The notes under the pieces were generated by a model that saw nothing but the letters and a program-made list of their open reading frames with translations, was not told the origin of the DNA and did not search any database. From contig NZ_CP032382.1 of assembly GCF_003589925.1 (NCBI RefSeq), positions 1,674,001-1,738,000 on the forward strand: DNA of 64,000 nucleotides, written 5' to 3'. The translations under genes and the position numbers were made by a program. The stretch's first letter is position 1. Every line of letters begins with the position of its first letter. Shown here piece by piece: positions 3,996 to 43,839 of this stretch. Source of the stretch: Chryseolinea soli. Lineage in GTDB: Bacteria > Bacteroidota > Bacteroidia > Cytophagales > Cyclobacteriaceae.

Positions 3996-5090
3996 GTGAA
4001 ATCGCTTCTGTTTTTCATGGTGGGATGGTTCATCCTCTTCGGAGGTGAAAAAGTGCTGGGCCAGGGAGGAGACAGCACGCGGGCTTATTTTATTGACGCA
4101 CGCTTTCACACGGGAAAAATATTGGACAATATCCCCACCGGCAATTCCACCGTGCGGCCCCCGTTCATGGCCGAGTTGGATCTGGGCATTATCAAGAATG
4201 AGCAACGGGTGTGGGACTATGCCAATTGCTACGCCAAAAATGGTCTTGCCCTTAGCTACATAGATTTTGGAGACGCCAAGTTGCTTGGCAAAGCCGCAGG
4301 CCTCACGATTTTTACGGAACCGCATGTGGTCCGGTCGCAGCGATTCTTGTTCACGTTCCGCGCCGGCGCTGGATTTTCCTACCTGAGCAAACTCTACAAT
4401 GCCGACTCCAATCCCGACAACATTTATTTCAGTCAACACATCAGCTTTTTATTGTTGCTGAACCCAACGCTTTATTATGTGATCCATCCGCAGTGGCGCA
4501 TTTTGGGAGGCGTTCAATTCAGTCACATTTCAAATGGCGGCAGCACCTGGCCCAATTGGGGGATCAACATCGTTACAGCCAACGTGGGGGTATCCTATTC
4601 GCTGCACCCACTGGAGCTAAAGCCGCGCTCGCGCAAGCCTTTCACCGACCGCCATCTGAAAGTGATCGCGCACCTTTTTGGTGGCAGTCACACCTCGGAC
4701 CCCACCGACACGGACCCCTCTAAAAAAAGATTTGCCGGCGGTGTCAATGTCGGCGTGGTAAAACCGCTGGGCAGAGTTTGCTCCATCGGCGTGGGTACTG
4801 AATTTTTTTACGACGGCGTTAGCAAATTGTTGGAAGAACAAAACAACAAACCGTACAACACGTTTGTGGGCTCTGTGAGCTTGCAGAACTATTTCTTTTT
4901 TGGCAAAATTCTTTTCGGACAACAATTGGCCTATTACATAACGCCACATCATCCCAATCCCGACAACAATCTCTACCAACATTATCTCCTCGAGTATCGA
5001 ATCAAGGGTCCCTTGTATGCCGGCATCTCATTGCACGCGCATGGAAAGGTATCGGACTTTGTTGCGTTCACCACAGGTGTGATCTTTTGA
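3996..5090 (+). CDS. PagL-like acyloxyacyl hydrolase (lipid A deacylase family)
   Basis: Outer-membrane beta-barrel protein of the acyloxyacyl hydrolase/PagL family, which removes a 3-O-linked acyl chain from lipid A. The family's catalytic segment is intact: FSHISNGG with the His-x-Ser-Asn core, followed by NWGIN and GVSYSL. The GTG at 3996 is preferred as start because it gives a compact signal peptide (MKSLLFFMVGWFILF, cleavage near VLGQG); a longer frame opens at TTG 3939. About 364 residues, longer than enterobacterial PagL (around 170), as is common for Bacteroidota members. Catalytic activity on lipid A is inferred from the family. Confidence 0.82.
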   Translation: MKSLLFFMVGWFILFGGEKVLGQGGDSTRAYFIDARFHTGKILDNIPTGNSTVRPPFMAELDLGIIKNEQRVWDYANCYAKNGLALSYIDFGDAKLLGKAAGLTIFTEPHVVRSQRFLFTFRAGAGFSYLSKLYNADSNPDNIYFSQHISFLLLLNPTLYYVIHPQWRILGGVQFSHISNGGSTWPNWGINIVTANVGVSYSLHPLELKPRSRKPFTDRHLKVIAHLFGGSHTSDPTDTDPSKKRFAGGVNVGVVKPLGRVCSIGVGTEFFYDGVSKLLEEQNNKPYNTFVGSVSLQNYFFFGKILFGQQLAYYITPHHPNPDNNLYQHYLLEYRIKGPLYAGISLHAHGKVSDFVAFTTGVIF

Positions 5091-5110
5091 TCATTCTTTT
5101 TGAAAAAATT

Positions 5111-5162
5111 GAGCCGGCACCTTGTTGAACGTTGTCAAAAAAGTGCCGGCTCTTATTTTTTT
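5111..5162. terminator. Bidirectional intrinsic terminator
   Basis: Arms GAGCCGGCAC and GTGCCGGCTC enclose a 22-base loop, with a T run on the plus-strand side and an A run on the other. It lies between the convergent PagL-like gene and the FtsX permease and probably serves both. Confidence 0.85.
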
Positions 5163-5172
5163 CTTGCGACGC

Positions 5173-7578
5173 TTACTCGCTTCGCATGGCGTTGACGGGG
5201 TTTTCGCGCGCCGCCCTTAGCGACTGAAAGCTGATGGTAAAGATCGCGACGAGCAGTGATGTTGTTCCGGCCCAGATCACGGCCCAGGCGTCCACGCCCG
5301 TGTGGAACGCAAAACCATTCAGCCAATTGTCGGCCAGGTACCAGCCCAGTGGCGCGGCAATCACAAAGGCGATGAGCACCAGCACGGCAAAATCCTTGGC
5401 GATGAGCACGATGATGTGGGGGACGGATGCGCCCATCACCTTGCGGATGCTGATCTCTTTGGCACGTTGTTCGGCGGTGAACGTGCTGAGTCCAAACAGG
5501 CCGAGGCTGGCAATGGTGATGGCAAGCACAGTAAAGATGAGCACGATATAGCTCATCCGTTGTTCGGCGCGGAAGAGCGCATCAAAATTTTCGTCAATGA
5601 AAGAATATTCAAAGGCATTGCTGGAATATTTTTTCCAGATGCTTTCCAGCAACGCAATTTTCGCGTGTGTATCCCCGGGCGCCAAGCGGATGGCCATCTC
5701 TCCATTGGGCTCGCCGCTGAGTATGATGGCCATGGGCTTCACGTTGTTGCGCAGTGTTTCGAAATTGAAATCCTTCATGACACCGATGAGGTTCATTGGA
5801 CGCGGGTTGTCGCCGCCATAGTTGATCACAAACTGATTTTCCATGGTCTCGAATCCCATTTGTTTGTAAGCCGCTTCGTTGAGAATGATGGACGCCGTGT
5901 CGGCGGGGAAGTCGCGTGAAAAGAATCGTCCTTCGGCCATCGTGTAGTGCATGGCCGCCAGGTGGTCGTGATCGACGAAGTATACCTGCAGCAGGAAATC
6001 CTGTTCGGTTCCTCCCTTGCGAAAGGCGTTGTTCCAACCGATGTGTGGCGGCAGGCTGCTGGCAAAGCTTGAGGCTTTGAATTCCGGATGTTGGGCCAGT
6101 TCATTTTTGAAAGCCTTGGCGTTTTTATCCAGCGACCAGGTGTGCAGCAAATCGATGACGTTCTCTTTGTCGAATCCCATGTCACGATGCTGCATGAAGG
6201 TGAGCTGCTTGTACACCACGATGCTGCCTAAAATAAGTGCGATGGAAATGACAAACTGGAACGTTACCAACACATTGCGCAGGCCCGAGTTCTTGAAGCC
6301 CGACCGGATCTTGCCCTTCAATACCTCCGACGGATTGAACGACGTCAGATAAAATGCCGGGTAGCTACCCGCCAGCAAACCGACGATGAGCGTGAACAAA
6401 ATAAGGCTCACCACCACGACCGGTTTGGCGAAAAACGAAAGCGTCAGCATTTTGCCCGAGAGCACATTGAAAGGCGATAACAACAACGCGATGAGCAACA
6501 ACGCCAGCAGCATTGATAGCGCGCTATAAATAAGCGACTCCGCCAAAAACTGGCCCATCAACCGCGAGCGCAACGCACCGATGGTCTTGCGCACACCCAC
6601 TTCCTTGGCCCGGTTCGACGACCGCGCCGTGGACAGGTTCATAAAATTGATACAGGCAATGAGGATGATGAACGCGGCCACAGCTCCGAAAATATAGAGG
6701 TACTGCATGTTGCCGCCGGGGATGATGTCTTCGTCTTGTTTGGCCCTTAGGTGAACATCAACCATCGGGATGATCGTAAAGCCGACGTCGCTCCCTTTTT
6801 CGCGGAACTGTTTGAAGGTGAGGCCCAGGAATTTTTCAAGATCCCTGCCGATGTTTTTTTCGGCCAGCACATCCAATTTTGATTTGACCTGCTGCACATT
6901 GGATTGCGCATGGATCTTGAAATAGGTATAAAGGTTGTTGGACGTCCATTGCTCTTCGTTCATATAGTTCCACGACTGACCCGACAACACCATGTCAAAA
7001 ACGATGGTCGAGTTGCCGGGAGGGTCTTGCGCTACGCCCGTCACTTCGCAGGCGGTTTTCTCGCCGCCACGCAACAGTATTTTTCCAATAGGGTTCTCGC
7101 TGCCAAAATAGCGTTTGGCTGCCGACTCGGTGATCACGATCTTATTGGTCCCTTTCAACACCGTTTTCGGATCGCCCGAGATCAACGGGAAAGAGAAAAA
7201 TTGGAAGAAGTTGGAGTCGGCCACCAGCATGTAGCGCTCGGTAAAAGTTTTGTCGCCGATGGCTATGGGCTGCGTGCGCCACAACCCGAAGCGTACCGCA
7301 GCTTCCACTTCCGGGATCTCGGCCTGCATGGCCGCGGCCACTGGCGCGGGCGACACGGCCATATTGAAATTGTTGCCCTGCAAACGCCCTGCAAATCCAA
7401 TGCGATAGGTGCGATCGGCATCGGCATGGAACCGGTCAAAACTCAATTCGTCAACGACATACAGCATGATGAGCAGACTGGCCGCAATGCCCAAGCCCAG
7501 CCCTACGATGTTGATAAACGAATAGGCTTTTTGCCGGAGCATGATGCGGAACGCGGTGGTCAGGTAGTTTTTGATCAT
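5173..7578 (-). CDS. FtsX/MacB-type ABC transporter permease
   Basis: About 802 residues from the ATG at 7578 (MIKNYLTTAFRIMLRQKAYS), the classic start of this family; the frame runs further upstream to 7794 but that part shows no family similarity. Layout: TM1 (about 20-42), a periplasmic MacB_PCD domain, three TM segments around 290-400 followed by GSYPAFYLTSFNP, a second periplasmic domain, and three C-terminal TM segments with the FtsX signature EQRAKEISIRKVMGASV. Unlike the other large permeases here it lacks the N-terminal prefix domain. No ATPase gene is adjacent. Substrate unknown; relatives move lipids, lipoproteins or peptides or transmit mechanical signals. Confidence 0.88.
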   Translation of the reverse strand: MIKNYLTTAFRIMLRQKAYSFINIVGLGLGIAASLLIMLYVVDELSFDRFHADADRTYRIGFAGRLQGNNFNMAVSPAPVAAAMQAEIPEVEAAVRFGLWRTQPIAIGDKTFTERYMLVADSNFFQFFSFPLISGDPKTVLKGTNKIVITESAAKRYFGSENPIGKILLRGGEKTACEVTGVAQDPPGNSTIVFDMVLSGQSWNYMNEEQWTSNNLYTYFKIHAQSNVQQVKSKLDVLAEKNIGRDLEKFLGLTFKQFREKGSDVGFTIIPMVDVHLRAKQDEDIIPGGNMQYLYIFGAVAAFIILIACINFMNLSTARSSNRAKEVGVRKTIGALRSRLMGQFLAESLIYSALSMLLALLLIALLLSPFNVLSGKMLTLSFFAKPVVVVSLILFTLIVGLLAGSYPAFYLTSFNPSEVLKGKIRSGFKNSGLRNVLVTFQFVISIALILGSIVVYKQLTFMQHRDMGFDKENVIDLLHTWSLDKNAKAFKNELAQHPEFKASSFASSLPPHIGWNNAFRKGGTEQDFLLQVYFVDHDHLAAMHYTMAEGRFFSRDFPADTASIILNEAAYKQMGFETMENQFVINYGGDNPRPMNLIGVMKDFNFETLRNNVKPMAIILSGEPNGEMAIRLAPGDTHAKIALLESIWKKYSSNAFEYSFIDENFDALFRAEQRMSYIVLIFTVLAITIASLGLFGLSTFTAEQRAKEISIRKVMGASVPHIIVLIAKDFAVLVLIAFVIAAPLGWYLADNWLNGFAFHTGVDAWAVIWAGTTSLLVAIFTISFQSLRAARENPVNAMRSE

Positions 7579-7875: not shown

Positions 7876-8982
7876 TTACACAATGTATTCAACCCGATGC
7901 GCTTCCTGCAACAAAGGAACTTCCAACTTGCTCAACAGGCGCGAAAGAACTTGATTCGGCACCGGATATTCCCGGTTGCTATTCTGATTTATCCATTCCT
8001 TATACGGCGTCTCAATATATACCAGCTTCACACGCGCTTTGTAAGAAACAAACAAATCAATCCATTGACCGCGGAGTTGCCGGGTGATATTGGTCGCGTT
8101 CCACACAAAGGGTTGCCCCTTTCTTAAAAAAGCCTTCGCTTGCTCCTTAGCTTCCTGCACCACCCAACCGGTGGCCGACGAGTCATCCGGCTTCAATTTG
8201 TGTTTGCGCCGGATGTCATCCAGGCTGATCACCGGCAGCCCGGGATAATTTTTTTTCAAGAACGTATCCTTTCCCATGCCGGGCAGACCCGACAGCATGA
8301 TCACTTCTCCTTTCAAATCATCAAACGGCACATAGTCGGGAGAAGAATCTTCTTTCTGGAAATAAACAAACCGCGCCAGGTCGGTCGGGAAAACGCGTGG
8401 CGCATGCCAGCATTGTTGCTCTTCGCAAAATGCTTTGAACAATTCAATGCGGTCCAACAAGTCTTGTTGATCCAAACACCGCCGCCCGAGCGCGTCGGCC
8501 TTTGCCAGCATGGCCAGCAACGGCATGTCCAGACGAAGCGACGCCTCCAGGACCGCTTTTCTTGGATCCGGTCTTTCCAGGGCCCATAAAGGCAATCCGT
8601 GATACCGCACCAGTGCAGCCACTTGTTCGCGGATAGCGAAAGGTGTGGGGATCGTTTTGTACAAAATTTGCCGCGCCGTAAATTCCCCTTGCCGCGCGTG
8701 ACCCCGCGACGTGATGCGACCGTCCTCCTCCGTCACCGTGGTGGAACGTTTTTCAACATCGTGCAACAAGGCCGCTGCCCACAGCACTTCTTGTTGCTGC
8801 TCATCCAGTAGTTTGAATTCATCGAGCGATTGAAGGGCCTCCAGCACCATGCGGGTGTGGATGGCCACATCGCCTTCCGCATGGTGGAATGGACTCTGCG
8901 GCACGTTCCGCATGTCGGCCACCCAATCGAAAGTTTGCTCGAGGTGATCCCATGTTTTATTATTAGTTATTGACCATTTCAT
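7876..8982 (-). CDS. HD-Pnk: HD phosphoesterase fused to 5'-OH polynucleotide kinase
   Basis: 368 residues with two enzyme domains. Residues 1-200 are an HD domain with metal-ligand candidates H33/H34, H42, H74-D75 (LLHDVEK) and H95. Residues 225-368 are a P-loop kinase: Walker A GLPGMGKDT at 232-240, SLDDIRR, and NATNITRQLR, the T4 Pnk-like pattern. This architecture was characterised from Runella slithyformis as a bifunctional end-healing enzyme: HD removes 2',3'-cyclic or 3' phosphate and Pnk phosphorylates 5'-OH RNA or DNA ends. The RNA ligase gene lies 13 bases upstream on the same strand, so the pair would heal and then seal nicked RNA. Confidence 0.9.
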   Translation of the reverse strand: MKWSITNNKTWDHLEQTFDWVADMRNVPQSPFHHAEGDVAIHTRMVLEALQSLDEFKLLDEQQQEVLWAAALLHDVEKRSTTVTEEDGRITSRGHARQGEFTARQILYKTIPTPFAIREQVAALVRYHGLPLWALERPDPRKAVLEASLRLDMPLLAMLAKADALGRRCLDQQDLLDRIELFKAFCEEQQCWHAPRVFPTDLARFVYFQKEDSSPDYVPFDDLKGEVIMLSGLPGMGKDTFLKKNYPGLPVISLDDIRRKHKLKPDDSSATGWVVQEAKEQAKAFLRKGQPFVWNATNITRQLRGQWIDLFVSYKARVKLVYIETPYKEWINQNSNREYPVPNQVLSRLLSKLEVPLLQEAHRVEYIV

Positions 8983-8995
8983 AATTTGTCTTTGT

Positions 8996-9688
8996 TTAAA
9001 CGGGGAACTCTCCCGTCAGTCTTGCTCTTCTCCAGTTGCGGGTCCAGTGCTCATCGGTTTTCACATGTCCTTTGCGGACGTATTTGAATACATGATGGGC
9101 AAACTCGTCCACCGCGTATGCTTTGGCGTTTCTGCTCACGACACCCTCCCGCGTGCACGGTGCTTTTAACGCGATATCATAAGAATCGAATATACTATTC
9201 TCCGACACCAACGTCATCACTTCCTGTCGAAACGTGACTTCATCGACAGGGTGCGTCACCTTCAACTCGGGCACCGTGGGGAAATCGAACAGGGCTGCAT
9301 AAAACTTCACCTCATCCCAACCCAACCACGTATCGTGCTGCCGGACGCCAAAAACATAGTAGTGATGATCCAGTTTTCGGTATTCAATAGAGTGAATGGC
9401 GTATACGTTCTCGCCAAAGATCTCGAGATCTCCTAAGTCGTTTTTTATCAACTCCCATCGCGTGCGGATCTGCTGGGTCCACGATGAGGTCGTGGGTGCG
9501 GCATGCGACCGGGCAAATACGCCATAGCGACTAAGGCAATTGTTCTCGCCATCCATTTTTTCAGTGTGAACTATGGTATCGATATTTTTTACATCCTGCC
9601 AATATTCGTGATTGATCCGGTCGTCGCTGCTCGTTCCCGGAGAAAAGGGATAATGATAGGTTCTTCCATATTTTCTTGAAATACTCAT
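8996..9688 (-). CDS. RNA ligase (Rnl family)
   Basis: Start taken at the ATG at 9688 (MSISRKYGRTYHYPFSPG); an in-frame codon at 9724 adds only a hydrophobic stretch. The nucleotidyltransferase motifs of ATP-dependent RNA ligases are visible: motif I TEKMDGENN with the AMP-accepting Lys at about residue 44, a motif IIIa-like IFGENVYA, motif IV REGVVSRN and motif V VFKYVRKGHVK. It would seal 3'-OH/5'-phosphate RNA ends. First gene of a two-gene operon with HD-Pnk, which would prepare the ends; together they form a complete RNA break-repair pathway. Confidence 0.9.
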   Translation of the reverse strand: MSISRKYGRTYHYPFSPGTSSDDRINHEYWQDVKNIDTIVHTEKMDGENNCLSRYGVFARSHAAPTTSSWTQQIRTRWELIKNDLGDLEIFGENVYAIHSIEYRKLDHHYYVFGVRQHDTWLGWDEVKFYAALFDFPTVPELKVTHPVDEVTFRQEVMTLVSENSIFDSYDIALKAPCTREGVVSRNAKAYAVDEFAHHVFKYVRKGHVKTDEHWTRNWRRARLTGEFPV

Positions 9689-32782: not shown

Positions 32783-33340
32783 TTAATCCAACGCACAAAA
32801 GATCTTCTTCATCGCCGAATCTCGTTTTTTATAATTCGGACCTGCAACTTTGAAATGACTGTCGAGCACAACCAGGTTTTTTATCTTGGCAACGTCAAAT
32901 AGCTTCTCCTCTTGCGGATCGTTCACCTGGTAGGCGCGTAGTAGCGCCGTACCTTTTGTTCCCACACCATAGCATTGCGGTTCGGCGGTTCTCAACTTGC
33001 CGTTATACTCAAATTGAATCTGTAGTTTCTTTTTGATCGCTTTACAAATCAAAATGCCGGTCAACGAATCTCCTTCCACGGCTTCCATCTTCTGATAGCC
33101 TTTGGCCAAATCAAAGTTCATTTGTGCCTGCAACCAAAACTCGGGAGTGGTGCCCAGCAATTTGCTGAGTTTGAAGGCCATCTCAACCGAAACGGCATAC
33201 TCTCCTTTTATAACGGCGTATAAATTTTTTCGTGCGATGCCCAGGGCGCCCGCCACTTCGGTGATTGTGAGTCGATGAGGTTTGATGTAAAGCTCTTCGA
33301 GGATCTGACCGGGGTGACTGGGGCTGTGCATGCGTGGCAT
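32783..33340 (-). CDS. HigA-type antitoxin fused to a WYL-like domain
   Basis: 185 residues, about twice a normal HigA. Residues 1-85 are a HigA/XRE helix-turn-helix (HPGQILEELYIKPHRLTIT, LGIARKNLYAVIKGEYAVS, LGTTPEFWLQAQMNFDLA). Residues 100-185 resemble small WYL-type domains: IQFEYNGKLRTAEPQCYGV, ALLRAYQV, then LFDVAKIKNLVVLD and a final F-K-x-x-x-x-x-Y. WYL domains often sense nucleic acid or nucleotide ligands and control transcription in defence loci. The toxin gene lies 5 bases upstream. It would neutralise the toxin, and I infer that it binds the inverted repeat between this operon and the tRNA operon. Confidence 0.8.
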   Translation of the reverse strand: MPRMHSPSHPGQILEELYIKPHRLTITEVAGALGIARKNLYAVIKGEYAVSVEMAFKLSKLLGTTPEFWLQAQMNFDLAKGYQKMEAVEGDSLTGILICKAIKKKLQIQFEYNGKLRTAEPQCYGVGTKGTALLRAYQVNDPQEEKLFDVAKIKNLVVLDSHFKVAGPNYKKRDSAMKKIFCALD

Positions 33341-33345
33341 AGAGG

Positions 33346-33618
33346 TTACTTTTGGTCCTGGCGATAATTAAGCTCCCGTATCTCTCCTTTAACAAACCGG
33401 AACGAAAATGTTCCCATGCCATGGACCGTCAGACGGCAACTGTCGTTACTTTCTTCCAGAACACTGACCTGTGCAATAGAAAGATCGCGCAGATCTTTGG
33501 CGGCATGTATCACGGAAAGCCACAGCAATAAATAGTCTTTCAGCTCGCGCGACAAGCCGCGGGCCGTTCCTTTCTCAAAGAGACTTTTTAAAACGCTATG
33601 ACGAATAGATACGATCAT
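33346..33618 (-). CDS. HigB/RelE-type toxin
   Basis: About 90 residues from the ATG at 33618 (MIVSIRHSVLKSLFEKGT); an upstream in-frame start at 33657 adds a tail that is not family-like. The HigB pattern is present: N-terminal strand with Arg-His, LFEKGTARGLS, then CRLTVHGMGTFSFRFVKGEI, matching the beta-sheet of the RelE fold where the usual WRVTFRF occurs. HigB enzymes cut mRNA on the ribosome. The toxin-first order is normal for HigBA. The gene is transcribed away from the tRNA/RNA ligase operon from a shared regulatory region. Confidence 0.78.
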   Translation of the reverse strand: MIVSIRHSVLKSLFEKGTARGLSRELKDYLLLWLSVIHAAKDLRDLSIAQVSVLEESNDSCRLTVHGMGTFSFRFVKGEIRELNYRQDQK

Positions 33619-33654
33619 CAACAACCCAAAACGTATTTTCTGCGTTAGGGGTGA

Positions 33655-33713
33655 CAAAAGTAAAAAAATATTTGTAACCTGCGGGGTAACATAAAGAGAA
33701 CTTGCTATCTTTG
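33655..33713. promoter_or_regulatory. Divergent promoters with central 19-bp inverted repeat (higBA / tRNA operon)
   Basis: On the minus strand, TACTTTTG (complement of 33655-33662) is a -7 box for higBA. On the plus strand, TATCTTTG (33706-33713) is a -7 box for the tRNA operon. Between them lies the inverted repeat TGTAACCTGCGGGGTAACA (33673-33691). A second copy of this repeat occurs before the other tRNA unit at 35610. A protein bound here would control both directions. Confidence 0.72.
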
Positions 33714-33784
33714 CATCACATTAAGAAAATGAAAATGAAACCGAGTATCCATCTGAATAACCGCCACACCAGCTCGCAAAGCAT

Positions 33785-33859
33785 ATGTTTTGCAGGGAGA
33801 GGAGCTTATGGCGCATGCCCGGGTCGAAGTATTTATATCTAGCATTAGATTTATTCTAA
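33785..33859 (+). CDS. Possible leader peptide of the first tRNA operon
   Basis: A 24-codon ORF (MFCRERSLWRMPGSKYLYLA and four more residues) between the promoter and a terminator. Its segment RERSLWRMPG can be aligned with REAGLCMPD in the leader of the second tRNA unit. An alternative, longer ORF in another frame starts at 33729 and stops at 33842. Position and similarity suggest an attenuation leader in which ribosome stalling decides whether transcription passes the terminator. Neither reading frame is proven. Confidence 0.4.
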   Translation: MFCRERSLWRMPGSKYLYLALDLF

Positions 33860-33864
33860 ATACG

Positions 33865-33896
33865 AAGCCCCGGGTCTACAGCCTGGGGCTTTTTCT
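33865..33896 (+). terminator. Attenuator terminator before the first tRNA
   Basis: Arms AAGCCCCGGG and CCTGGGGCTT (one mismatch) followed by TTTTCTTT. It lies between the promoter and the first tRNA of the same transcript, so read-through must be regulated for the operon to be expressed. Confidence 0.8.
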
Positions 33897-33913
33897 TTGC
33901 TCAAATCTTAATC

Positions 33914-33986
33914 GGACACATAGCTCAGCCGGTAGAGCAGGGCGCTGTTAACGCCCAGGTCGATGGATCGTGCCCATCTGTGTCCT
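33914..33986 (+). tRNA. Divergent tRNA-Asn (GTT)
   Basis: Complete cloverleaf: acceptor GGACACA/TGTGTCC, D-arm GCTC-AGCCGGTA-GAGC, anticodon arm GGGCG-CTGTTAA-CGCCC with anticodon GTT, variable AGGTC, T-stem GATGG/CCATC. All stems pair perfectly. The T-loop is ATCGTGC: A at 54 and T at 58 instead of the near-universal T54 and A58. The discriminator is T rather than the G usual for Asn, and CCA is not encoded. First gene after the attenuator. Confidence 0.85.
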
Positions 33987-34002
33987 CCTATGTTAAAAAA
34001 AA

Positions 34003-34080
34003 CGAGGTGTATCGACTCACGCTTATACCGTGTTGAAATCGTAGTCTGGTTACACGTTGGTTCAAATCCAGCCACCTCGA
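34003..34080 (+). tRNA. tRNA-like RNA with rearranged arms
   Basis: A perfect acceptor CGAGGTG/CACCTCG (discriminator A) and a perfect canonical T-arm GTTGG-TTCAAAT-CCAGC mark a tRNA-like gene of 78 bases. The middle does not fold as a standard D-arm plus anticodon arm. Instead the first internal hairpin is CACG-CTTATAC-CGTG, which looks like an anticodon arm (TAT, Ile), and after it comes GTA-GTCTGGT-TAC, which looks like a D-arm with its GG. The order of the two arms seems exchanged. It may be a rearranged, an intron-containing or a decayed tRNA. Confidence 0.5.
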
Positions 34081-34148
34081 CGGGAATGAAGTAAGATCAT
34101 AAATAAAGCAATATGGAAACTGACAAGACGATCGGAGAGAAAAAATTT

Positions 34149-34219
34149 CCGGCCAAAGCATTAAGGTGATGCTCCTGCCTTTTAAGCAGGAGAACACGGA
34201 TCGTTACCGTGTGGCCGGA
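34149..34219 (+). tRNA. Divergent tRNA-Lys (TTT)
   Basis: Complete cloverleaf: acceptor CCGGCCA/TGGCCGG, D-arm GCAT-TAAGGTG-ATGC, anticodon arm CCTGC-CTTTTAA-GCAGG with anticodon TTT, short variable AGAA, T-stem CACGG/CCGTG. The T-loop ATCGTTA again has A54 and T58. The first pair is C1-G72, where normal Lys tRNAs have G1-C72; the discriminator A is normal. CCA is not encoded. It is followed 96 bases later by the RNA ligase gene. Confidence 0.87.
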
Positions 34220-34315
34220 CAAGAATGAGTATTCATCAGTCATCGCAAAATCACGGTGAATGATCGAAGTATTTTGTTTAACAATTAAGGAAAGAATTTT
34301 TTTACACGTTTTAAT

Positions 34316-34954
34316 ATGAAAGAGTACCACAAGATCCAGACCGTATTTTTACGGTCCCCGGAAAGCAATTTTAAGACCCTCATGGAAGGTCACTGGGCAT
34401 TGCCGGAGTTTGAAATTTTAAAGGACATTCCATGGATCTGGACTGAAAAAATTGACGGAACGAATATTCGTATCCAGTGGAATGGCCGGGAAGTCCGTTT
34501 CGGTGGAAAAACTGACGACGCCCAAATCCCTACGTTTCTGCTGAATGTTTTGCAAGACAAATTTACAGCAGACCGGATGAAGGCCGTTTTTACTGACGCC
34601 ACCGAAGTGTGTTTGTACGGCGAGGGTTACGGTGCCAAAATTCAAAAAGGTTCCCATTACCTGCCCGATCGAACGGATTTCATTTTGTTCGACTGCAAAG
34701 TTGACAACTGGTGGTTAGCCCGTCCAAACCTGGAAGATATCGCGAACAAACTTTCCATTGGCATTGTTCCGATTATGGGTATGGGCACGCTGCCGCAAGC
34801 TGTTGAATTGGTAAAGAAGGGCTACAAATCCACGATCGCACATAATAAAAATTATGACGCCGAGGGATTAATTATGAAACCCGCCGTTGAATTGTTCAAC
34901 CGGCAAGGTCAACGGATAGTCTCCAAAATTAAATTCAGAGACTTCATCCGTTAA
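34316..34954 (+). CDS. RNA ligase inside the tRNA operon
   Basis: 212 residues. Nucleotidyltransferase motifs are clear: motif I TEKIDGTNIRI with the AMP-accepting Lys at 45, LYGEGYGAKIQKG, motif IIIa-like FILFDCKVDNWWL, motif IV AEGLIMKPA and motif V SKIKFRDF. It is smaller than T4 Rnl2 and lacks a separate C-terminal domain. It would seal RNA 3'-OH/5'-phosphate ends. Its place between tRNA genes strongly suggests that tRNAs are the substrate. It is only distantly similar to the ligase at 8996-9688, so the two are not a recent duplication. Confidence 0.9.
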   Translation: MKEYHKIQTVFLRSPESNFKTLMEGHWALPEFEILKDIPWIWTEKIDGTNIRIQWNGREVRFGGKTDDAQIPTFLLNVLQDKFTADRMKAVFTDATEVCLYGEGYGAKIQKGSHYLPDRTDFILFDCKVDNWWLARPNLEDIANKLSIGIVPIMGMGTLPQAVELVKKGYKSTIAHNKNYDAEGLIMKPAVELFNRQGQRIVSKIKFRDFIR

Positions 34955-34962
34955 GAAGTCAG

Positions 34963-34997
34963 TGTCCCAGGTATAAATGGTTATTGTACTGGGGACA
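34963..34997 (+). other. Stem-loop after the RNA ligase gene
   Basis: TGTCCCAG pairs with CTGGGGACA (one bulged G) around an 18-base loop. It starts 8 bases after the ligase stop and is not followed by a T run, so it is probably a processing or stabilising structure in the transcript rather than a terminator. It might also be a remnant of a tRNA acceptor stem. Confidence 0.4.
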
Positions 34998-35005
34998 TTG
35001 TTCTC

Positions 35006-35079
35006 TGGAGATTAAGCTAACTAAGTAGAAGCATCCCGCCGAAAACGGGAGGGACTGGAGCGTTACCAGAAATCTCCAC
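35006..35079 (+). tRNA. Divergent tRNA-Phe-like (GAA)
   Basis: Acceptor TGGAGAT/ATCTCCA pairs perfectly. The anticodon arm is TCCCG-CCGAAAA-CGGGA: five pairs, anticodon GAA, but position 33 is C instead of the near-invariant T. The D-arm is weak (GCT/AGC) and its loop lacks GG. The T-arm is CTGG-AGCGTTA-CCAG with a loop that again has A54 and T58. First pair T1-A72 and discriminator C differ from normal Phe tRNA. It could be functional only in a special context, or be a decoy. Confidence 0.55.
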
Positions 35080-35095
35080 ATAGGGCAAGTCGGAA

Positions 35096-35120
35096 GGATG
35101 GGAGGTATATTCTCCTGTCC
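35096..35120 (+). other. Nine-base-pair hairpin with seven-base loop
   Basis: GGATGGGAG and CTCCTGTCC pair over nine positions (two G-T pairs) around the loop GTATATT. Stem length and the seven-base loop with T at the second position resemble an extended anticodon arm, but no acceptor stem could be found around it. It lies between two tRNA-like genes. Confidence 0.4.
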
Positions 35121-35133
35121 CACGTCAGTGCCG

Positions 35134-35211
35134 GTGGCGCGATAGCATAGTCGCCGAAAAATGCGTTCCGGGTTTCCCGGAAAGATCGAGGTTAAAGCCC
35201 TCCGCGCCACA
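35134..35211 (+). tRNA. tRNA-like RNA, identity unclear
   Basis: Acceptor GTGGCGC/GCGCCAC pairs perfectly and can extend to eight pairs. A D-like stem GCAT/ATGC, an anticodon-like arm TTCCG/CGGAA with loop GGTTTCC, and a T-like arm GAGG-TTAAAGC-CCTC are in the normal order. The anticodon-like arm can also close to a seven-pair stem with a TTT triloop, and position 33 would be G, so decoding is doubtful. Perhaps a decoy or a degenerate tRNA. It ends 27 bases before the DUF4180 gene. Confidence 0.45.
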
Positions 35212-35238
35212 ACACATTGTGAAACAAATAAAAAAATC

Positions 35239-35592
35239 ATGACGAATCACGTTCTACACAACATCAACGGCGAGGTTATCGCCGAGCTCCAGGCCAACGG
35301 CACCGCCATCCGCGACGCCCAGCAGTTCCTGGAAATCATGATGAATCTCCCCGCCGATAAGATTGTCATTCACAAGGCGTGTTTAGATGAATCATTTTTC
35401 GATCTGCGTAGCGGCCTTGCCGGCGAAGTGTTGCAAAAAGTGGCGAACTATTCCAGGCAACTGGGAATCGTCGGTGATTTTTCTGTTTATGAAAGTAAGA
35501 GTTTGCGCGATTTTATTTACGAGAGTAACAAGTCAAACACCGTGGCCTTTGTGAGTACACTCGATGCTGCGTTGAAAAAACTGAGTGCTTGA
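35239..35592 (+). CDS. DUF4180 protein
   Basis: 117 residues from the ATG at 35239 (MTNHVLHNINGEVIAELQ). The DUF4180 signature is strong: a helix with DAQQFLEIMMNLPADKIVIHK, then DESFFDLRSGLAGEVLQK, NYSRQLGIVGDFSVYESKSL and DFIYESNKSNTVAFV. The family is small, cytoplasmic, of unknown function and resembles STAS-like alpha/beta folds. Last gene of the first tRNA/RNA ligase transcript. This placement is the best clue to its function and suggests an RNA- or translation-stress role. Confidence 0.88.
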   Translation: MTNHVLHNINGEVIAELQANGTAIRDAQQFLEIMMNLPADKIVIHKACLDESFFDLRSGLAGEVLQKVANYSRQLGIVGDFSVYESKSLRDFIYESNKSNTVAFVSTLDAALKKLSA

Positions 35593-35609
35593 AAAAAATA
35601 TTCAAAAAG

Positions 35610-35653
35610 TGTTACCTAATGGGTAACAAATAAAAAATTACATCGTATATTTG
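35610..35653 (+). promoter_or_regulatory. Promoter of the second tRNA unit with the shared inverted repeat
   Basis: The inverted repeat TGTTACCTAATGGGTAACA (35610-35628) is the same element as at 33673-33691. A -7 box TATATTTG follows at 35646-35653, 17 bases downstream. No other copy was noticed in the window, so the repeat marks the two tRNA units. Confidence 0.72.
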
Positions 35654-35657
35654 AGTC

Positions 35658-35744
35658 ATGAATAAGAGAAACGTACATAGTTCCTATCGCCGACCCCAAC
35701 CGCTAACAACCCGGGAGGCCGGACTATGTATGCCTGATCAATGA
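35658..35744 (+). CDS. Possible leader peptide of the second tRNA unit
   Basis: A 28-codon ORF starting just after the promoter and ending REAGLCMPDQ. Its last part resembles the leader at 33785 (RERSLWRMPG) and the one before the EF-G gene (GEACVFPDERG). The codons for R-E-A contain GGGAGGC (35713-35719), complementary to GCCTCCC in the terminator's 5' arm, and CCTGATCA (35733-35740) is complementary to TGATCAGG in the terminator. These could form an anti-terminator. The ATG lies very near the expected transcription start, so translation may be leaderless. Confidence 0.45.
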   Translation: MNKRNVHSSYRRPQPLTTREAGLCMPDQ

Positions 35745-35772
35745 TGTAACATCGCGTTGTGTAAGACCATAC

Positions 35773-35804
35773 AAGCCTCCCTGATCAGGAGGCTTTTTGT
35801 TTTT
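35773..35804 (+). terminator. Attenuator terminator before tRNA-Pro
   Basis: Perfect arms AAGCCTCC and GGAGGCTT around CTGATCA, followed by TTTGTTTTT. It stands between the promoter and the first tRNA of the second unit. Confidence 0.85.
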
Positions 35805-35819
35805 ATAGGTAATATTTAT

Positions 35820-35894
35820 AGGGTAATAGAGGAGTCGGTCGTCCTCGCTTGCTTTGGACGCAAGAGATCCCTGGTTCGAATCCGGGTTACCCTA
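35820..35894 (+). tRNA. Divergent tRNA-Pro (TGG)
   Basis: Acceptor AGGGTAA/TTACCCT, D-arm GAGG/CCTC with a ten-base loop, anticodon arm CTTGC-TTTGGAC-GCAAG with anticodon TGG, variable AGATC, T-arm CCTGG-TTCGAAT-CCGGG. The T-loop is canonical. The first pair is A1-T72 rather than the C1-G72 usual for bacterial Pro tRNA; discriminator A is normal. CCA is not encoded. Palindromic repeats begin 6 bases downstream. Confidence 0.88.
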
Positions 35895-35899
35895 CGTGG

Positions 35900-35958
35900 T
35901 CGCCGTAGCTTTAGCGAAGGCGGGCGGCGCTCGCCGAAACTTTAGCGAAGGCGAGCAT
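35900..35958. repeat. Palindromic repeat copies 1
   Basis: Two adjacent copies of a unit with core GCCGTAGCTTTAGCGAAGGC or its variant GCCGAAACTTTAGCGAAGGC. Each can fold through CGCC...GGCG ends. The same unit occurs repeatedly between the following tRNAs and was not noticed elsewhere in the window. Confidence 0.7.
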
Positions 35959-36029
35959 TGCTCACAAAGCTCTCAACGCTGGCGAGTACCACTCACCACG
36001 CTCGTTTGATGATGAGCAAAAAAGTATTT

Positions 36030-36112
36030 CGGAGAGTAGTCCGTAAGTGGGAGCGGGCCGCTCTGTAAAAGCGGTGCTTTTAGCCTTGGGTGTTCGATTC
36101 GCCCCTCTCCGA
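36030..36112 (+). tRNA. tRNA-Tyr (GTA)
   Basis: Class II tRNA with acceptor CGGAGAG/CTCTCCG, D-stem GTCC/GGGC, anticodon loop CTGTAAA with anticodon GTA, a long variable region of about 12 bases, and T-arm GGGTG-TTCGATT-CGCCC. The first pair is C1-G72, unlike the G1-C72 of normal bacterial Tyr tRNA. Discriminator A; CCA not encoded. Confidence 0.88.
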
Positions 36113-36205
36113 CTTGCCCGCCGTAGCTTTAGCGAAGGCGGGCGGCGCTCGCCGAAGCTTTAGCGAAGGCAAGCTTACTCATCGAACCATCAGCGAAGGC
36201 GAGCT
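36113..36205. repeat. Palindromic repeat copies 2
   Basis: Two full units (GCCGTAGCTTTAGCGAAGGC and GCCGAAGCTTTAGCGAAGGC) followed by a partial one ending AGCGAAGGCGAGC. They begin directly after the tRNA-Tyr 3' end. Confidence 0.7.
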
Positions 36206-36328
36206 TGCCTGAACTCGAGCGTGAGATTGTTTGCAGATGTCGGTCTGACCGTTCTGTGAGATAGTACGTTCTGGAGCGTTGATTTCTTCACGCATTTCAT
36301 AGCTCCGCTCCCGGGCCGCGGGGGCCCC

Positions 36329-36410
36329 GCATGTTCCCATCCGGGCTTAACCCTATCCGCACATGCCCATGCCAGGCCGAAGATAGGCTTAGGCCCGGAT
36401 GGGAACATGC
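36329..36410. repeat. Large stem-loop with 29-base arms
   Basis: Arms at 36329-36357 and 36382-36410 are inverted copies; the outer 18 bases (from GCATGTTCCCATCCGGGC) match perfectly and the inner 11 have two differences. The loop is 24 bases. It lies in the 400-base gap between tRNA-Tyr and tRNA-His and is not followed by a T run. It may be a folded single-stranded recombination site, a structured RNA or a mobile palindrome. No protein-coding gene is convincing in this gap. Confidence 0.65.
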
Positions 36411-36488
36411 TGGAGTTGGTGTGGGTGCGAAGTGTGGGTGTGGCTCGTACCATTCCGTTCGCCTCCGACTCATCGTGATGTGATGAGC

Positions 36489-36516
36489 AACCCGCCTTCG
36501 CTAAAGCTTCGGCGGG
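36489..36516. repeat. Palindromic repeat copy 3 (inverted)
   Basis: One unit in the opposite orientation, CCCGCCTTCGCTAAAGCTTC followed by GGCGGGTG, 11 bases before tRNA-His. Confidence 0.7.
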
Positions 36517-36526
36517 TGATATACAT

Positions 36527-36601
36527 GGTGATGTAACGCAAACTGGTTTCGCGGCGGGATTGTGGATCCCGTGTTTATGAGTTCGAGCCTCATGCATCAC
36601 C
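36527..36601 (+). tRNA. tRNA-His (GTG)
   Basis: The His-specific extra G at -1 pairs with C73. Acceptor GTGATGT/GCATCAC, D-stem CGC/GCG, anticodon arm CGGGA-TTGTGGA-TCCCG with anticodon GTG, variable TGTTT, T-arm ATGAG-TTCGAGC-CTCAT. All key identity elements for His are present. CCA not encoded. The next tRNA begins 11 bases later. Confidence 0.9.
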
Positions 36602-36612
36602 CTTATTATAAT

Positions 36613-36685
36613 TGCCCTGTCGTCTAACGGATCAGGACACGAGGCTACGAACCTCGAAGTGCAAGTTCGATTCTTGCCAGGGCAA
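36613..36685 (+). tRNA. tRNA-Arg (ACG)
   Basis: Acceptor TGCCCTG/CAGGGCA, D-stem GTC/GAC with loop TAACGGATCAG, anticodon arm CGAGG-CTACGAA-CCTCG with anticodon ACG, variable AAGT, T-arm GCAAG-TTCGATT-CTTGC. Anticodon ACG would be edited to ICG by TadA and read CGN codons. The first pair is T1-A72 rather than G1-C72. Discriminator A; CCA not encoded. Confidence 0.9.
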
Positions 36686-36687
36686 CA

Positions 36688-36712
36688 CCTTCGCTAAAGC
36701 TTCGGCGAGCGA
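36688..36712. repeat. Palindromic repeat copy 4, running into tRNA-Ser
   Basis: CCTTCGCTAAAGCTTCGGCG followed by AGCGA. Its end overlaps the expected 5' acceptor strand of the next tRNA. Confidence 0.65.
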
Positions 36713-36796
36713 GGCAGGCAGACATTGGTTCGCTGCACTGTCCTGCTAAGACAGGTCCCGGGCTATGGGATGAAGGTTCGATTCCTTCGCTCTCCG
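36709..36796 (+). tRNA. tRNA-Ser (GCT) with defective 5' acceptor strand
   Basis: D-arm GCAG-ACATTGGTTCG-CTGC, anticodon arm CTGTC-CTGCTAA-GACAG with anticodon GCT, a long variable arm and T-arm GAAGG-TTCGATT-CCTTC are all good. The 3' acceptor strand is GCTCTCC with discriminator G. The 5' strand expected as GGAGAGC is GCGAGGC here, so several pairs are lost. The palindromic repeat just upstream seems to have replaced or overwritten the original 5' end. It may be inactive unless processed unusually. Confidence 0.7.
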
Positions 36797-36821
36797 CTTA
36801 AGTCTTTGAGTAATTATACAT

Positions 36822-36905
36822 GGAGGGTACCCGGCCGGATGAGGAGCTTGTCTTGAAAACAAGTAGCGGTTAACCCCGTTGTGAGTTCGAGTCTCACACC
36901 CTCTA
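36822..36905 (+). tRNA. tRNA-Ser (TGA)
   Basis: Acceptor GGAGGGT/ACCCTCT with G1-T72 wobble, anticodon arm CTTGT-CTTGAAA-ACAAG with anticodon TGA, a long variable arm AGCGG-TTAA-CCCCGTT, T-arm GTGAG-TTCGAGT-CTCAC. The D-arm is short (CC/GG). Discriminator A instead of the G usual for bacterial Ser. CCA not encoded. Last tRNA of the array. Confidence 0.88.
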
Positions 36906-36907
36906 CT

Positions 36908-41898: not shown

Positions 41899-42957
41899 CT
41901 ATGAGGTGAATTCGCTTCTGATTTTCACCAGTAATTCTTCGCAAAGTTCACCGTCGGGAGTCTCGGGTAAATCAGAATGCTTAAACAGTTCGTCCACCAT
42001 TTGCATTTTCTCATCGGCCTGCTGCAACAGATCATCATACGCAAACTCCCCGGCGCGGATGCGCAAGAGCCATTCCCGGTCGGGGCGCCTCACGTTCACC
42101 ATATTGAAGCGGGCGATTTCTTCCGCCATATTCAACAAGCGAAAAACATGCATCATGTTCTTGGCGTCATAGTTCTTTCCATGCTCAACGGTATTTTCAT
42201 AGCGCGCTTCATTTCTCTGGTCCACCCATTCCCAATATTGTTTGTATTCTTTACAATACACGGTGTAGCCGTCCTTATTAAAGTATAGCGTCGCAGCAGG
42301 AGTGAGGCCCTCGGGAACCGAGCTCAGCGACACCTCATCGGATCGTTCGCTGGAACAGATTCCACGGAAAGGCTGCGTGGGCGACGGCCCGAACAACGCA
42401 TAGATGTCACGCATATGGTTTATACTTACCAGGCCACACTCTTCTTGCCGATAGTGCATGTTACTTAACCATTCGCTTGCCGGGACCGAGCCTTGCCCTT
42501 GAACAACATAACAGAAATCCAAAACCGTCTTTCGTTTCTTGTCCAACGGATTCAGTATCTTTTTATTCAGACCCCTCGCTTTCTTGATTTGAGCATACGC
42601 ATATTGCCCAAAGGTTTGATTGCAAAGCCGGGATAAAAAAAATTCCGGCCGGATCAAATCCATGCTGGGATGACGGTAAAGAATGCAATCCGCCGGAGTG
42701 TTTAAAAGCTCCAGGATATTGGGATTATTTTTTAACAACAGGTCGACGAACTTCCAGATCTCATAGTACATCTCATCATTTGTGGCGTTATTGATCTGAT
42801 CGGTATACGTCAATCCATAAAATTCTTCCTTGGGCAAGACAAACACGCCTTTTATATCGGTGTCGGAATGTGGCAAGGCCAGGCCATAGGCCTGGCTACC
42901 ACTGATGCACTTGAACAAAATGCTGGAAGAATCTTTCTGTAATTCTTGTAACGTCAT
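41899..42957 (-). CDS. Polymerase-beta-like nucleotidyltransferase
   Basis: 352 residues. The nucleotidyltransferase active-site pattern is present: SGSQAYGLALPHSDTDIKGV, with GS and the Asp-x-Asp metal ligands. It belongs to the COG3541-like group of nucleotidyltransferases (E. coli-type predicted NTases). A 24-residue polar stretch (around SSERSDEVSLSSVPEG) interrupts the middle and looks like an inserted repeat. It overlaps the upstream homologue's stop codon by 4 bases, so both are translationally coupled. The substrate is unknown; RNA ends are a reasonable guess from the RNA-repair genes nearby. Confidence 0.83.
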   Translation of the reverse strand: MTLQELQKDSSSILFKCISGSQAYGLALPHSDTDIKGVFVLPKEEFYGLTYTDQINNATNDEMYYEIWKFVDLLLKNNPNILELLNTPADCILYRHPSMDLIRPEFFLSRLCNQTFGQYAYAQIKKARGLNKKILNPLDKKRKTVLDFCYVVQGQGSVPASEWLSNMHYRQEECGLVSINHMRDIYALFGPSPTQPFRGICSSERSDEVSLSSVPEGLTPAATLYFNKDGYTVYCKEYKQYWEWVDQRNEARYENTVEHGKNYDAKNMMHVFRLLNMAEEIARFNMVNVRRPDREWLLRIRAGEFAYDDLLQQADEKMQMVDELFKHSDLPETPDGELCEELLVKIRSEFTS

Positions 42958-43700
42958 ACGATGTACTTTCTGAATATGCGATTTAACGGTTCATCATCCA
43001 CCGCAACGCCAGTTTCCGAAACTGCCCTTTTGCAGATCGCCATTTGCTCGCGGATATAATCATTAACCGATGCCAGGCTTGCGATGGAACTCTTCTCGTC
43101 GCCCACGGCCTTCTGTCTCAGAAGATCATCCACCGTTTCATTCAAGTCCGCTCTCATGATCGCCCGGAGTTTATCAAATTCCATCGGCGGCACTTCCGAG
43201 TGGTTAACGATCCATTGACAGGCCAGGAGCGTGCGCAACGCATAGCAGTATTTCTTCAGCCTGACGGTATCTCCCGAAAGATCGCTTTCAAAAATACCAA
43301 GCGTCATGCTAAGATAGTGATGCATGGCGGCACGGGGTGAGAAGTAGCGTGGCATAAGTGCCCTCATCTCGCCGACAAAACCGGGATCCGCCTCATAAAC
43401 CACCGGCGACTGCAACCACTCATAAAGTGGGGCGTTTGATTTCCGGAAAAGACGGAGCGCTTTTCTCAGTTCCCATCCGCTGATATCCAGCACTTCATTT
43501 ACCGGGAGCTCAACCACATCGCGTTGATCATTCAGCGACAAATAAAAGTCAGCTTTGTGAACATAGATGAACCGCACGTCAAAATCGCTGTCGGCAGAGG
43601 CAAATCCCCAGGCGCGGCTTCCGGATTCACAGGCAAAGAGGATCCGAATATCGAATTCCCGTTCCAGGGCCCGCAGTTTTTCTTGAATGATAGCTTTCAT
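42954..43700 (-). CDS. Polymerase-beta-like nucleotidyltransferase (paralogue)
   Basis: 248 residues from the ATG at 43700 (MKAIIQEKLRALER). The active site is ESGSRAWGFASADSDFDVRF: GS followed by Asp-x-Asp. Further family features are LDISGWELRKALRLFRKSNA and PLYEWLQSPVVY. First gene of the overlapping pair with the nucleotidyltransferase at 41899. Paired genes of this type probably form a functional unit. No antitoxin-like HEPN partner is visible, which argues against a simple MNT/HEPN toxin-antitoxin system. Confidence 0.87.
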   Translation of the reverse strand: MKAIIQEKLRALEREFDIRILFACESGSRAWGFASADSDFDVRFIYVHKADFYLSLNDQRDVVELPVNEVLDISGWELRKALRLFRKSNAPLYEWLQSPVVYEADPGFVGEMRALMPRYFSPRAAMHHYLSMTLGIFESDLSGDTVRLKKYCYALRTLLACQWIVNHSEVPPMEFDKLRAIMRADLNETVDDLLRQKAVGDEKSSIASLASVNDYIREQMAICKRAVSETGVAVDDEPLNRIFRKYIV

Positions 43701-43839
43701 GGTTGTTTTTGTTGTCCAGACAAAGCTATGATACAAGTGCGCAGTCTTTCTGCGTAGTTGCTGTCTAGGTGTCTTTTATTTTCGAATGGCTGCTGTTTTG
43801 TCAAGTGACCACTATCCCTGCGAATCCTGGATACGAGGA

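Follow-up and report, generated by a model that had tools for sequence, protein, structure and literature searches.

Leader peptides as candidate codon checklists for spare tRNA arrays in Chryseolinea-like bacteria

A stretch of 64,000 nucleotides from Chryseolinea soli (assembly GCF_003589925.1, contig NZ_CP032382.1, positions 1,674,001 to 1,738,000 of the forward strand; hereafter the window) carries, at 32.8-36.9 kb, an island in which the genes for HigA and HigB lie on the minus strand and two units of transfer RNA (tRNA) genes on the plus strand. The source genome is a single contig of 8.24 Mb. Each unit opens with a short leader open reading frame (ORF) and an intrinsic terminator, and across related islands the codons of the leaders list the tRNAs that are encoded downstream. 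Comparison of these sequences makes it likely that the island is a tRNA-loss alarm with a built-in replacement, in which the leader would sense a missing tRNA and release spare tRNAs.

Leaders with the features of transcription attenuators

Unit 1 consists, in order, of a leader, a terminator, tRNA-Asn, an Ile(UAU)-like RNA, tRNA-Lys, an RNA ligase gene, a Phe(GAA)-like RNA, a tRNA-like RNA called X and a DUF4180 gene. Unit 2 consists of a leader, a terminator and the genes for tRNA-Pro, Tyr, His, Arg, Ser(GCU) and Ser(UGA). With eight tRNAs called by ARAGORN in 3 kb, the island is a tRNA array unit, that is, a dense cluster of non-housekeeping tRNA genes. A first-pass annotation, made from the DNA letters, had described HigBA divergent from a unit of tRNAs and tRNA-like RNAs with an RNA ligase and DUF4180, a second unit of six tRNAs, and the same inverted repeat, leader and terminator before both. 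ARAGORN, Rfam and profile matches bear out the first unit, ARAGORN finds the six tRNAs (Pro, Tyr, His, Arg, Ser and Ser at 35820-36906), and the repeat does occur before both units. Leader ORFs, antiterminators and the nearby RNA-repair genes were absent from that account.

In unit 1, a Bacteroidetes-type -7 box (TATCTTTG, 33706-33713) is followed by leader ORF 1 (MKPSIHLNNRHTSSQSICFAGRGAYGACPGRSIYI, 33735-33842, with a further in-frame ATG at 33729), by the predicted 5' arm of an antiterminator inside that ORF (33816-33836) and by intrinsic terminator 1 (33864-33898). Unit 2 repeats this arrangement with a -7 box (TATATTTG, 35646-35653), leader ORF 2 (MNKRNVHSSYRRPQPLTTREAGLCMPDQ, 35658-35744), an antiterminator 5' arm inside it (35712-35732) and intrinsic terminator 2 (35773-35804), all of them on the plus strand.

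We assembled 25 leaders, with start codons chosen by eye: 15 of unit 1, eight of unit 2 and two that were read later. Related loci in other genomes are denoted by L numbers, with positions counted within each fetched stretch; L012-L016 were left out of the leader survey. All 25 leaders consist of an ORF and then an intrinsic terminator, between the promoter and the first gene, and the first 23 encode 22-36 residues. The segment that pairs with the 5' arm of the terminator starts at codon 26-29 in all 15 unit-1 leaders, near a conserved Pro-Gly. Antiterminator pairing exceeds that of codon shuffles at P < 0.05 in 11 of 23 leaders, with combined values, uncorrected for relatedness, of 4e-9 for unit 1 and 8e-5 for unit 2. 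In a model of the nascent RNA, the mean probability that the terminator 5' arm is held by upstream sequence is 0.65 with a ribosome in the middle of the sensor, 0.13 with a ribosome at the stop codon and 0.44 with shuffled codons, and the stalled value lies above the other two in 23 of 23 leaders. In an equilibrium model the complete terminator prevails in all 23 when the ribosome is at the stop codon. By these comparisons the leaders are putative transcription attenuators: a short ORF precedes the first gene, the predicted antiterminator and the intrinsic terminator exclude each other, and the regulatory codons are tied to the product of the operon.

Leader codons match the anticodons encoded downstream

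Across 19 leaders of related islands, codons of the sensor part, defined as the leader up to the antiterminator arm, match 98 of the 101 anticodons encoded downstream. This tally treats interrupted tRNAs and remnants as present (Asp, Ile and Tyr in L115; Pro and Gly in L116; Asp in L117; Pro and His in L123; His in L006; Tyr remnants in L007, L118 and L121), the Phe-like and Ile-like RNAs were included, and X and two other RNAs described below, TL1 and TL2, were excluded. The leaders of the ligase-only loci L008, L009, L010 and L017, which have no recognised tRNA, lie outside the count. Unit-2 leaders cover 43 of 44 anticodons, where host coding stretches of equal length cover 19.4 (standard deviation 3.1, maximum 31 in 4000); unit-1 leaders cover 55 of 57, against 33.6 (standard deviation 3.1, maximum 44). 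The match belongs to the reading frame of the leader, as the other two frames match 64 and 53 of the 101.

Exchanging leaders among units gave P values of 0.004 and 1e-4. Permuting amino acids gave 6e-4 and 0 of 20000, which became 0.017 and 1.5e-4 with a single leader per close cluster. When only intact ARAGORN tRNAs are considered, 68 of 70 anticodons are matched (36/37 and 32/33), and under strict wobble 33/37 and 32/33.

Individual leaders follow the content of their arrays. Leader 2 of the window (MNKRNVHSSYRRPQPLTT...) stands before tRNAs for His, Ser(GCU), Ser(UGA), Tyr, Arg and Pro, while the second unit of L118, reduced to Pro, a Tyr remnant and His, has the leader MRVYNPYHPHRPDK. Leaders with a downstream tRNA-Gln (L115, L116 and L117) contain four, two and three Gln codons, against 1, 1, 0, 0 and 1 in the others. 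L116, which has three added Leu tRNAs, has two Leu codons in its leader, against zero or one elsewhere, and up to ten isotypes are listed in one leader of this locus. Two loci whose leaders were read after the checklist test, L119 and L120, gave six matches out of six: both have tRNA-Cys (interrupted in L119), Tyr (interrupted in both) and Ile(UAU), of which ARAGORN calls only the Cys of L120, and both leaders contain codons for all three (Cys 3 and 2, Tyr 2 and 2, ATA 2 and 2; P about 0.04 each for a random stretch).

Diverged tRNAs with retained anticodons

The tRNAs of unit 1 are tRNA-Asn(GUU) at 33914-33988, a D-armless Ile(UAU)-like tRNA at 34003-34080 (Rfam tRNA, 31 bits), tRNA-Lys(UUU) at 34149-34220 and, beyond the ligase gene, a Phe(GAA)-like tRNA with an unusual T loop at 35007-35078, followed by X at about 35130-35211. 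Unit 2 encodes tRNA-Pro(UGG) at 35820-35895, Tyr(GUA) at 36030-36113, His(GUG) at 36528-36602, Arg(ACG) at 36613-36686, Ser(GCU) at 36709-36797 and Ser(UGA) at 36822-36906. All are on the plus strand; ARAGORN calls Asn, Lys and the six of unit 2, and the Phe-like RNA and X are called neither by ARAGORN nor, as tRNAs, by Rfam.

A tRNA search of the genome yielded at least 48 matches among the 150 of 274 candidates that were scored; five lie in the island, and the other 43 served as the housekeeping comparison set. Each of the eight tRNAs that ARAGORN calls in the island duplicates the anticodon of an existing housekeeping gene. The island copies are 50-67% identical to that gene, and 58-67% identical to the best of the 43 housekeeping genes. 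Their anticodon loops are identical to the housekeeping ones in four of eight cases and differ at one or two positions in the rest; the altered nuclease cut site in the anticodon loop that is the hallmark of a phage anti-nuclease tRNA set was not found. Nuclease resistance of the spares through loop mutations was set aside as a general explanation, given the four unchanged loops.

Conservation among relatives indicates that these RNAs are maintained as structures. In alignments of 6-9 loci, the stems of X and of the Phe-like, Ile-like and Lys RNAs are paired in 100% of the scored cells, and pairs changed on both sides number six in X, three in the Phe-like RNA, three in the Ile-like RNA and six in Lys (counted in six of the nine loci that have the gene, L006, L116 and L117 being left out); in X, the Phe-like RNA and Lys most lie within the anticodon arm. 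On one of five measures, the number of pairs changed on both sides, 228 of 500 shuffles did at least as well as the Phe-like RNA. The triplets GAA, UAU and UUU are invariant among relatives, and the base preceding the anticodon of the Phe-like RNA is C in the window and T in eight relatives. Across 10 of the related genomes, identity is 96-100% for the housekeeping tRNA-Lys and 99-100% for tRNA-Phe; among the island genes it falls to 82% for Lys and to 81% for the Phe-like RNA.

In X, and in TL2 of relatives, a variable hairpin takes the place of the anticodon arm. TL2 (L007:4818-4889, L118:1773-1849, L122:1800-1875 and L123:1652-1735) combines a canonical T arm with a hairpin specific to each locus; inspected by eye, the D region is similar to the one in the array tRNA-Trp of L116. 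Another conserved RNA, TL1, lies downstream of an Asp or Asp-like tRNA (L115:1905-1963, L116:2015-2073 and L117:3716-3774); it appears by eye to form a long stem and two hairpins around a three-way junction, and ARAGORN makes no call. We also noticed by eye small palindromic repeats, for example TCCCGATAGTTATCGGGA, within tRNA genes of the arrays, many of them in the anticodon or T arm (L115:1808-1900 and 3364-3453, L116 at about 4200-4220, L006 at about 6890-6925, and L123 at about 2490-2510 and 2630-2650).

HigBA and a repeat at the unit promoters

HigA (32783-33340, minus strand) belongs to TIGR02607 (E 2.1e-22), and forms one operon, as a helix-turn-helix antitoxin of the HigA type, with its HigB-like partner (33346-33618, minus strand). 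The WYL-like extension that the first-pass annotation had given to HigA is present at its C terminus as a weak match to the PADLOC WYL model (E 5e-4). It is fused to HigA in two of nine loci (the window and L006) and unmatched in the other seven; stand-alone stretches similar to it occur elsewhere in 5 of 12 genomes searched.

HigB matches PF05015 with E 9e-4, which is under the Pfam cut-off, and its top match in the PDB is HigB 4mct (E 6e-5). It is 67-91% conserved among related loci. We take His54 and His92 to be the catalytic residues of HigB. The position aligned to His54 of 4mct holds no His in any of the nine HigB proteins; the alignment ends before His92, and a His occurs near the C terminus in two of the nine (L116 and L117), at differing places. 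HigB is thus probably without a catalytic His, and its activity as a ribosome-dependent RNase is doubtful because the residue aligned to His54 is never His.

The inverted repeat TGTTACC-N5-GGTAACA, 19 bp long, occurs twice in the 64 kb with up to one mismatch, against none expected from 100 shuffles. One copy lies between HigBA and unit 1 (33673-33691) and the other upstream of unit 2 (35610-35628). The repeat is found at all 17 promoters of the nine array loci that HigBA adjoins (the window, L006, L115-L118 and L121-L123), and also at L011, whose genome carries HigBA elsewhere (L122). It was not found at L007, L008, L009, L010 or L017. Repression of the unit promoters by HigA through this repeat is likely, because the repeat starts 33-36 bases upstream of the -7 box wherever a box was found. 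No HigBA pair adjoins L007 and L011 (4-5 kb upstream covered) or L119 and L120 (about 2 kb upstream covered). Upstream of the promoters of L119 and L120 we observed a different inverted repeat, longer and imperfect (AGTAACTTTTTCGA...TCGAAAAAAGTTACT in L120), which suggests another regulator at these two loci without adjacent HigBA.

Optional and neighbouring repair genes

The Rnl2-type RNA ligase of unit 1 (34316-34954, plus strand) has the nucleotidyltransferase domain PF09414 (E 9e-18), and its lysine motif EKIDG aligns with EKIHG of T4 Rnl2; it falls far under the cut-off of the NCBIfam Rnl2 model. The DUF4180 protein (35239-35592, plus strand; E 2e-33) has no relative by sequence in the PDB at E < 0.1, and its predicted fold gives a weak STAS-like match (template-modelling score, TM, 0.49). 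Both genes are optional parts. The association proposed by the first-pass annotation recurs in related genomes for HigBA, which adjoins 9 of 13 arrays, and far less for the ligase, within the array in 4 of 13 loci (the window, L006, L007 and L011), and for DUF4180, present in 5 of 13 (the window, L006, L115, L116 and L117). The ligase is found in 4 of 146 relatives, the window genome included, and among 390 genomes of the order and 395 of the class only in the window's own genome. We rejected the ligase as the defining part of the system, as it is rare and missing from nine of the 13 arrays.

Two further sets of RNA-repair genes lie in the window. An HD plus AAA_33 kinase with a second RNA ligase (7879-9688, minus strand), lies about 23 kb from the island; homologues stand beside L118, L121, L123 and L007. 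Two RlaP genes of the RNA-repair polymerase-beta family (41899-43736, minus strand) lie 5 kb beyond the island, and RlaP occurs also near L006 (L125). Through the HD-kinase with its ligase and through RlaP, genes for tRNA repair thus occur repeatedly near the arrays, and in differing arrangements. In the window the repair genes extend over about 35 kb, and one of the two ligases belongs to an attenuated tRNA unit. Within the RlaP gene at 41899-42957, an internal stretch resembles by eye a translated short repeat.

Distribution among relatives

We located 13 array loci in 12 genomes: the window, L006, L007, L011 and L115-L123, with L011 and L122 in one genome. They came from a ligase scan of 84,980 species (12 loci), from whole-genome searches and from fetched stretches. 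L116 has 17 ARAGORN tRNAs. DNA of unit 1 was matched at E < 1e-20 in 9 of 196 genomes of the family, the window's included, and weakly in six more; the weak matches (L104-L109) were left out, except for a scan of L124, around the L109 match.

Four further loci (L008, L009, L010 and L017) have a leader and terminator before a ligase and no recognised tRNA. Their leader peptide is nearly invariant (MKPGVNIANQNTLPKYASYLTGRAVGFYPGYMYR), and a conserved non-coding segment of about 80 bases without a tRNA call lies between the terminator and the ligase (L008:4880-4980 and the same place in the other three). In L017, from Ohtaekwangia koreensis, a frameshift and an in-frame stop disrupt the ligase (5001-5638), and leader and terminator appear intact.

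The loci fall in the genus and family of the window, in Chryseolinea, Pseudochryseolinea and Ohtaekwangia genomes; the genomes of L008 and L009 are two metagenome-assembled genomes with the unchecked labels Chitinophaga and Bacteroides. The window's own genome was the sole match both of a HigB profile in 395 class genomes and of an Ile(UAU) model in 390 order genomes, in draws that evidently held no known relatives and with few first-look candidates scored (12 of 3570, from the own genome). Up to now the system has been found in Chryseolinea-like bacteria.

A proposed mechanism

Sequence comparison provides the leader ORFs, the antiterminators and terminators, the codon checklist, the covariation and the operator-like repeat, and from these we infer a switch that would act through ribosome stalling in vivo. 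When all listed tRNAs are available, the leader ribosome would reach the stop codon and cover part of the antiterminator, and transcription would terminate. When any listed tRNA is missing, cleaved or uncharged, the ribosome would stall at the matching codon and the antiterminator would form, so that the polymerase would continue into the spare tRNAs and, in some loci, into the RNA ligase and DUF4180 genes. The spares keep the anticodon and differ elsewhere; they could function in translation in place of tRNAs destroyed by anticodon nucleases or similar toxins, while cut tRNAs would be mended by the ligase and the nearby HD-kinase and RlaP. HigA, with HigB as its partner, would probably act as a first gate by binding to the promoters of the units and repressing them.

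Cutting of tRNAs is how many toxins, bacteriocins and phage-defence systems kill. The most likely trigger is the loss of tRNAs to anticodon nucleases, since spare tRNAs and repair enzymes form a sensible combination. A stronger version, on which we are evenly divided, is that of a dedicated defence whose leaders sense the loss of single tRNA species and release nuclease-tolerant copies, leader and array co-evolving with the attackers. The replacement and repair system of the first-pass annotation would thus stand in outline, as conserved, inducible-looking replacement tRNAs with repair genes nearby, with the ligase and DUF4180 reduced to accessories.

Several observations weigh against this reading. 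The three uncovered anticodons are all in L116, and strict wobble additionally loses two Ser(UGA) and one Leu(UAG). Taken alone, the unit-1 leader of the window has no significant amino-acid excess (6 of 26 codons, P 0.5), and it also covers 15 of 22 non-array anticodons. The P values overstate independence, because the loci are related. At equilibrium, the terminator falls below 0.7 at a listed stall position in only 11 of 23 leaders, and with no ribosome at all it is weak in three (0.16, 0.42 and 0.56). The decision would therefore have to be kinetic, taken during transcription as in known attenuators. Evasion of nucleases by loop mutation is not general, given the four unchanged loops. In relatives, small palindromes interrupt several array tRNAs, among them Cys in L119 and Tyr in both L119 and L120.

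Alternative explanations

The strongest alternative, which we nevertheless think unlikely, is a domesticated phage or mobile tRNA array used for codon supply or anti-defence, the leaders being inherited phage regulation and not an alarm of the host. The ligase family is frequent in phages (32 viral contigs and 81 phage records), and parts of some island tRNAs are 76-84% identical to tRNAs of phages (among the 20 of 141 records listed). However, a housekeeping tRNA-Tyr of the same genome is equally phage-like (79.5% over 99% of its length in its best match), and the His and Arg tRNAs have no phage match at E 0.1. Exact motifs of the island Lys and Phe-like RNAs were not found in viral contigs, and plasmids gave no match. 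With a housekeeping control that matches phage tRNAs as well, a phage origin of the island tRNAs is not established.

Somewhat less credible is a general attenuator for starvation or translation stress, in which a leader of mixed codons senses any slow translation, whether from starvation or antibiotics, and the tRNAs raise decoding capacity. The TopAI-YjhQ toxin-antitoxin operon offers a known case of a leader ORF that responds to several ribosome drugs (PMC12121999). Unit-1 leaders do cover many non-array anticodons (136 of 229), but unit-2 leaders cover few (52 of 164), their Gln and Cys codons track the tRNA-Gln and tRNA-Cys of the array, and amino-acid starvation is not relieved by additional tRNA genes.

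Less credible again is the idea that X, TL2 and the whole array are decoys that soak up a tRNA nuclease and not working tRNAs. The hairpins of X, without a conserved anticodon yet fully paired and covarying, would suit a decoy, and for the tRNA-like YrlA RNA of Salmonella it has been suggested that it might inhibit an anticodon nuclease competitively (PMC7790460). The remaining array tRNAs, however, still have an anticodon and a cloverleaf, and the agreement of their anticodons with the leader would be superfluous in a decoy.

That HigBA does the sensing and the leader ORFs play no part in it, much as the first-pass annotation had proposed in making the toxin-antitoxin pair sensor or trigger, is very improbable: the operator-like repeat at both window promoters and at every promoter of the HigBA loci speaks for it, but leader, terminator and codon match persist in the four arrays without adjacent HigBA, HigB probably lacks its catalytic His, and the in-frame codon match, which exceeds that of the other frames, points to the leader ribosome as the reader of tRNA shortage.

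If leaders do sense missing tRNAs, the island would show how bacteria survive tRNA-cutting attacks, with a host that detects which tRNA is gone and supplies its replacement, and it could serve directly as a reporter of lost tRNAs. The prediction from the codon checklist is sharp, as the identity of the missing tRNA can be tested codon by codon. The arrays are also a natural collection of strongly diverged tRNAs for study, including D-armless and anticodon-less forms.

Comparison with known systems

The leader attenuators of trp, his and pheST respond to one charged tRNA or to a few, and the genes under their control encode enzymes. They share with the island a leader ORF with sense codons, an antiterminator and an intrinsic terminator, with a stalled ribosome switching expression on; the island differs in listing up to ten isotypes per leader and in that its output is the tRNA genes themselves. 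To our knowledge there is no counterpart known as a tRNA-supply system, and the island would be the first case in which a multi-isotype leader peptide exerts autogenous control over the supply from tRNA genes. Among the best-ranked titles and abstract openings of a literature search that covered few subscription journals, no leader peptide controlling tRNA genes through its own codons was found.

Phage tRNA sets evade tRNA-targeting defences by replacing cleaved host tRNAs (PMC10264068). The island shares their divergent spare tRNAs, but it is chromosomal and leader-controlled, with four of eight anticodon loops unchanged and the divergence elsewhere. Array units of Mycobacterium and its plasmids have been called putative antidefence (PMC12803027), and the Mycobacterium units are likewise dense, divergent tRNA arrays in bacterial genomes (PMC12803027, PMC5966550); the main texts of both papers do not mention a leader, attenuation, a promoter or an RNA ligase. 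The RNA repair operon rsr-yrlBA-rtcBA, which is induced by tRNA damage and controlled by RtcR with its CARF domain, also combines an RNA ligase with tRNA-like RNAs (PMC7790460); its main text uses neither the term tRNA genes nor the term leader.

The phage RNA repair enzymes Rnl2, kinase and RlaP (PMC7824862) belong to the same families as those of the window, where they are spread over a bacterial chromosome with one ligase in an attenuated unit. The toiL upstream ORF of TopAI-YjhQ (PMC12121999) is, like the leaders of the island, a leader ORF for translation stress, and it precedes a toxin-antitoxin operon; it acts on translation and Rho, and its output is the toxin-antitoxin pair. Leader attenuation and tRNA arrays are thus both known already, and what would be new here is the use of such a leader to check the stock of the tRNAs encoded behind it.

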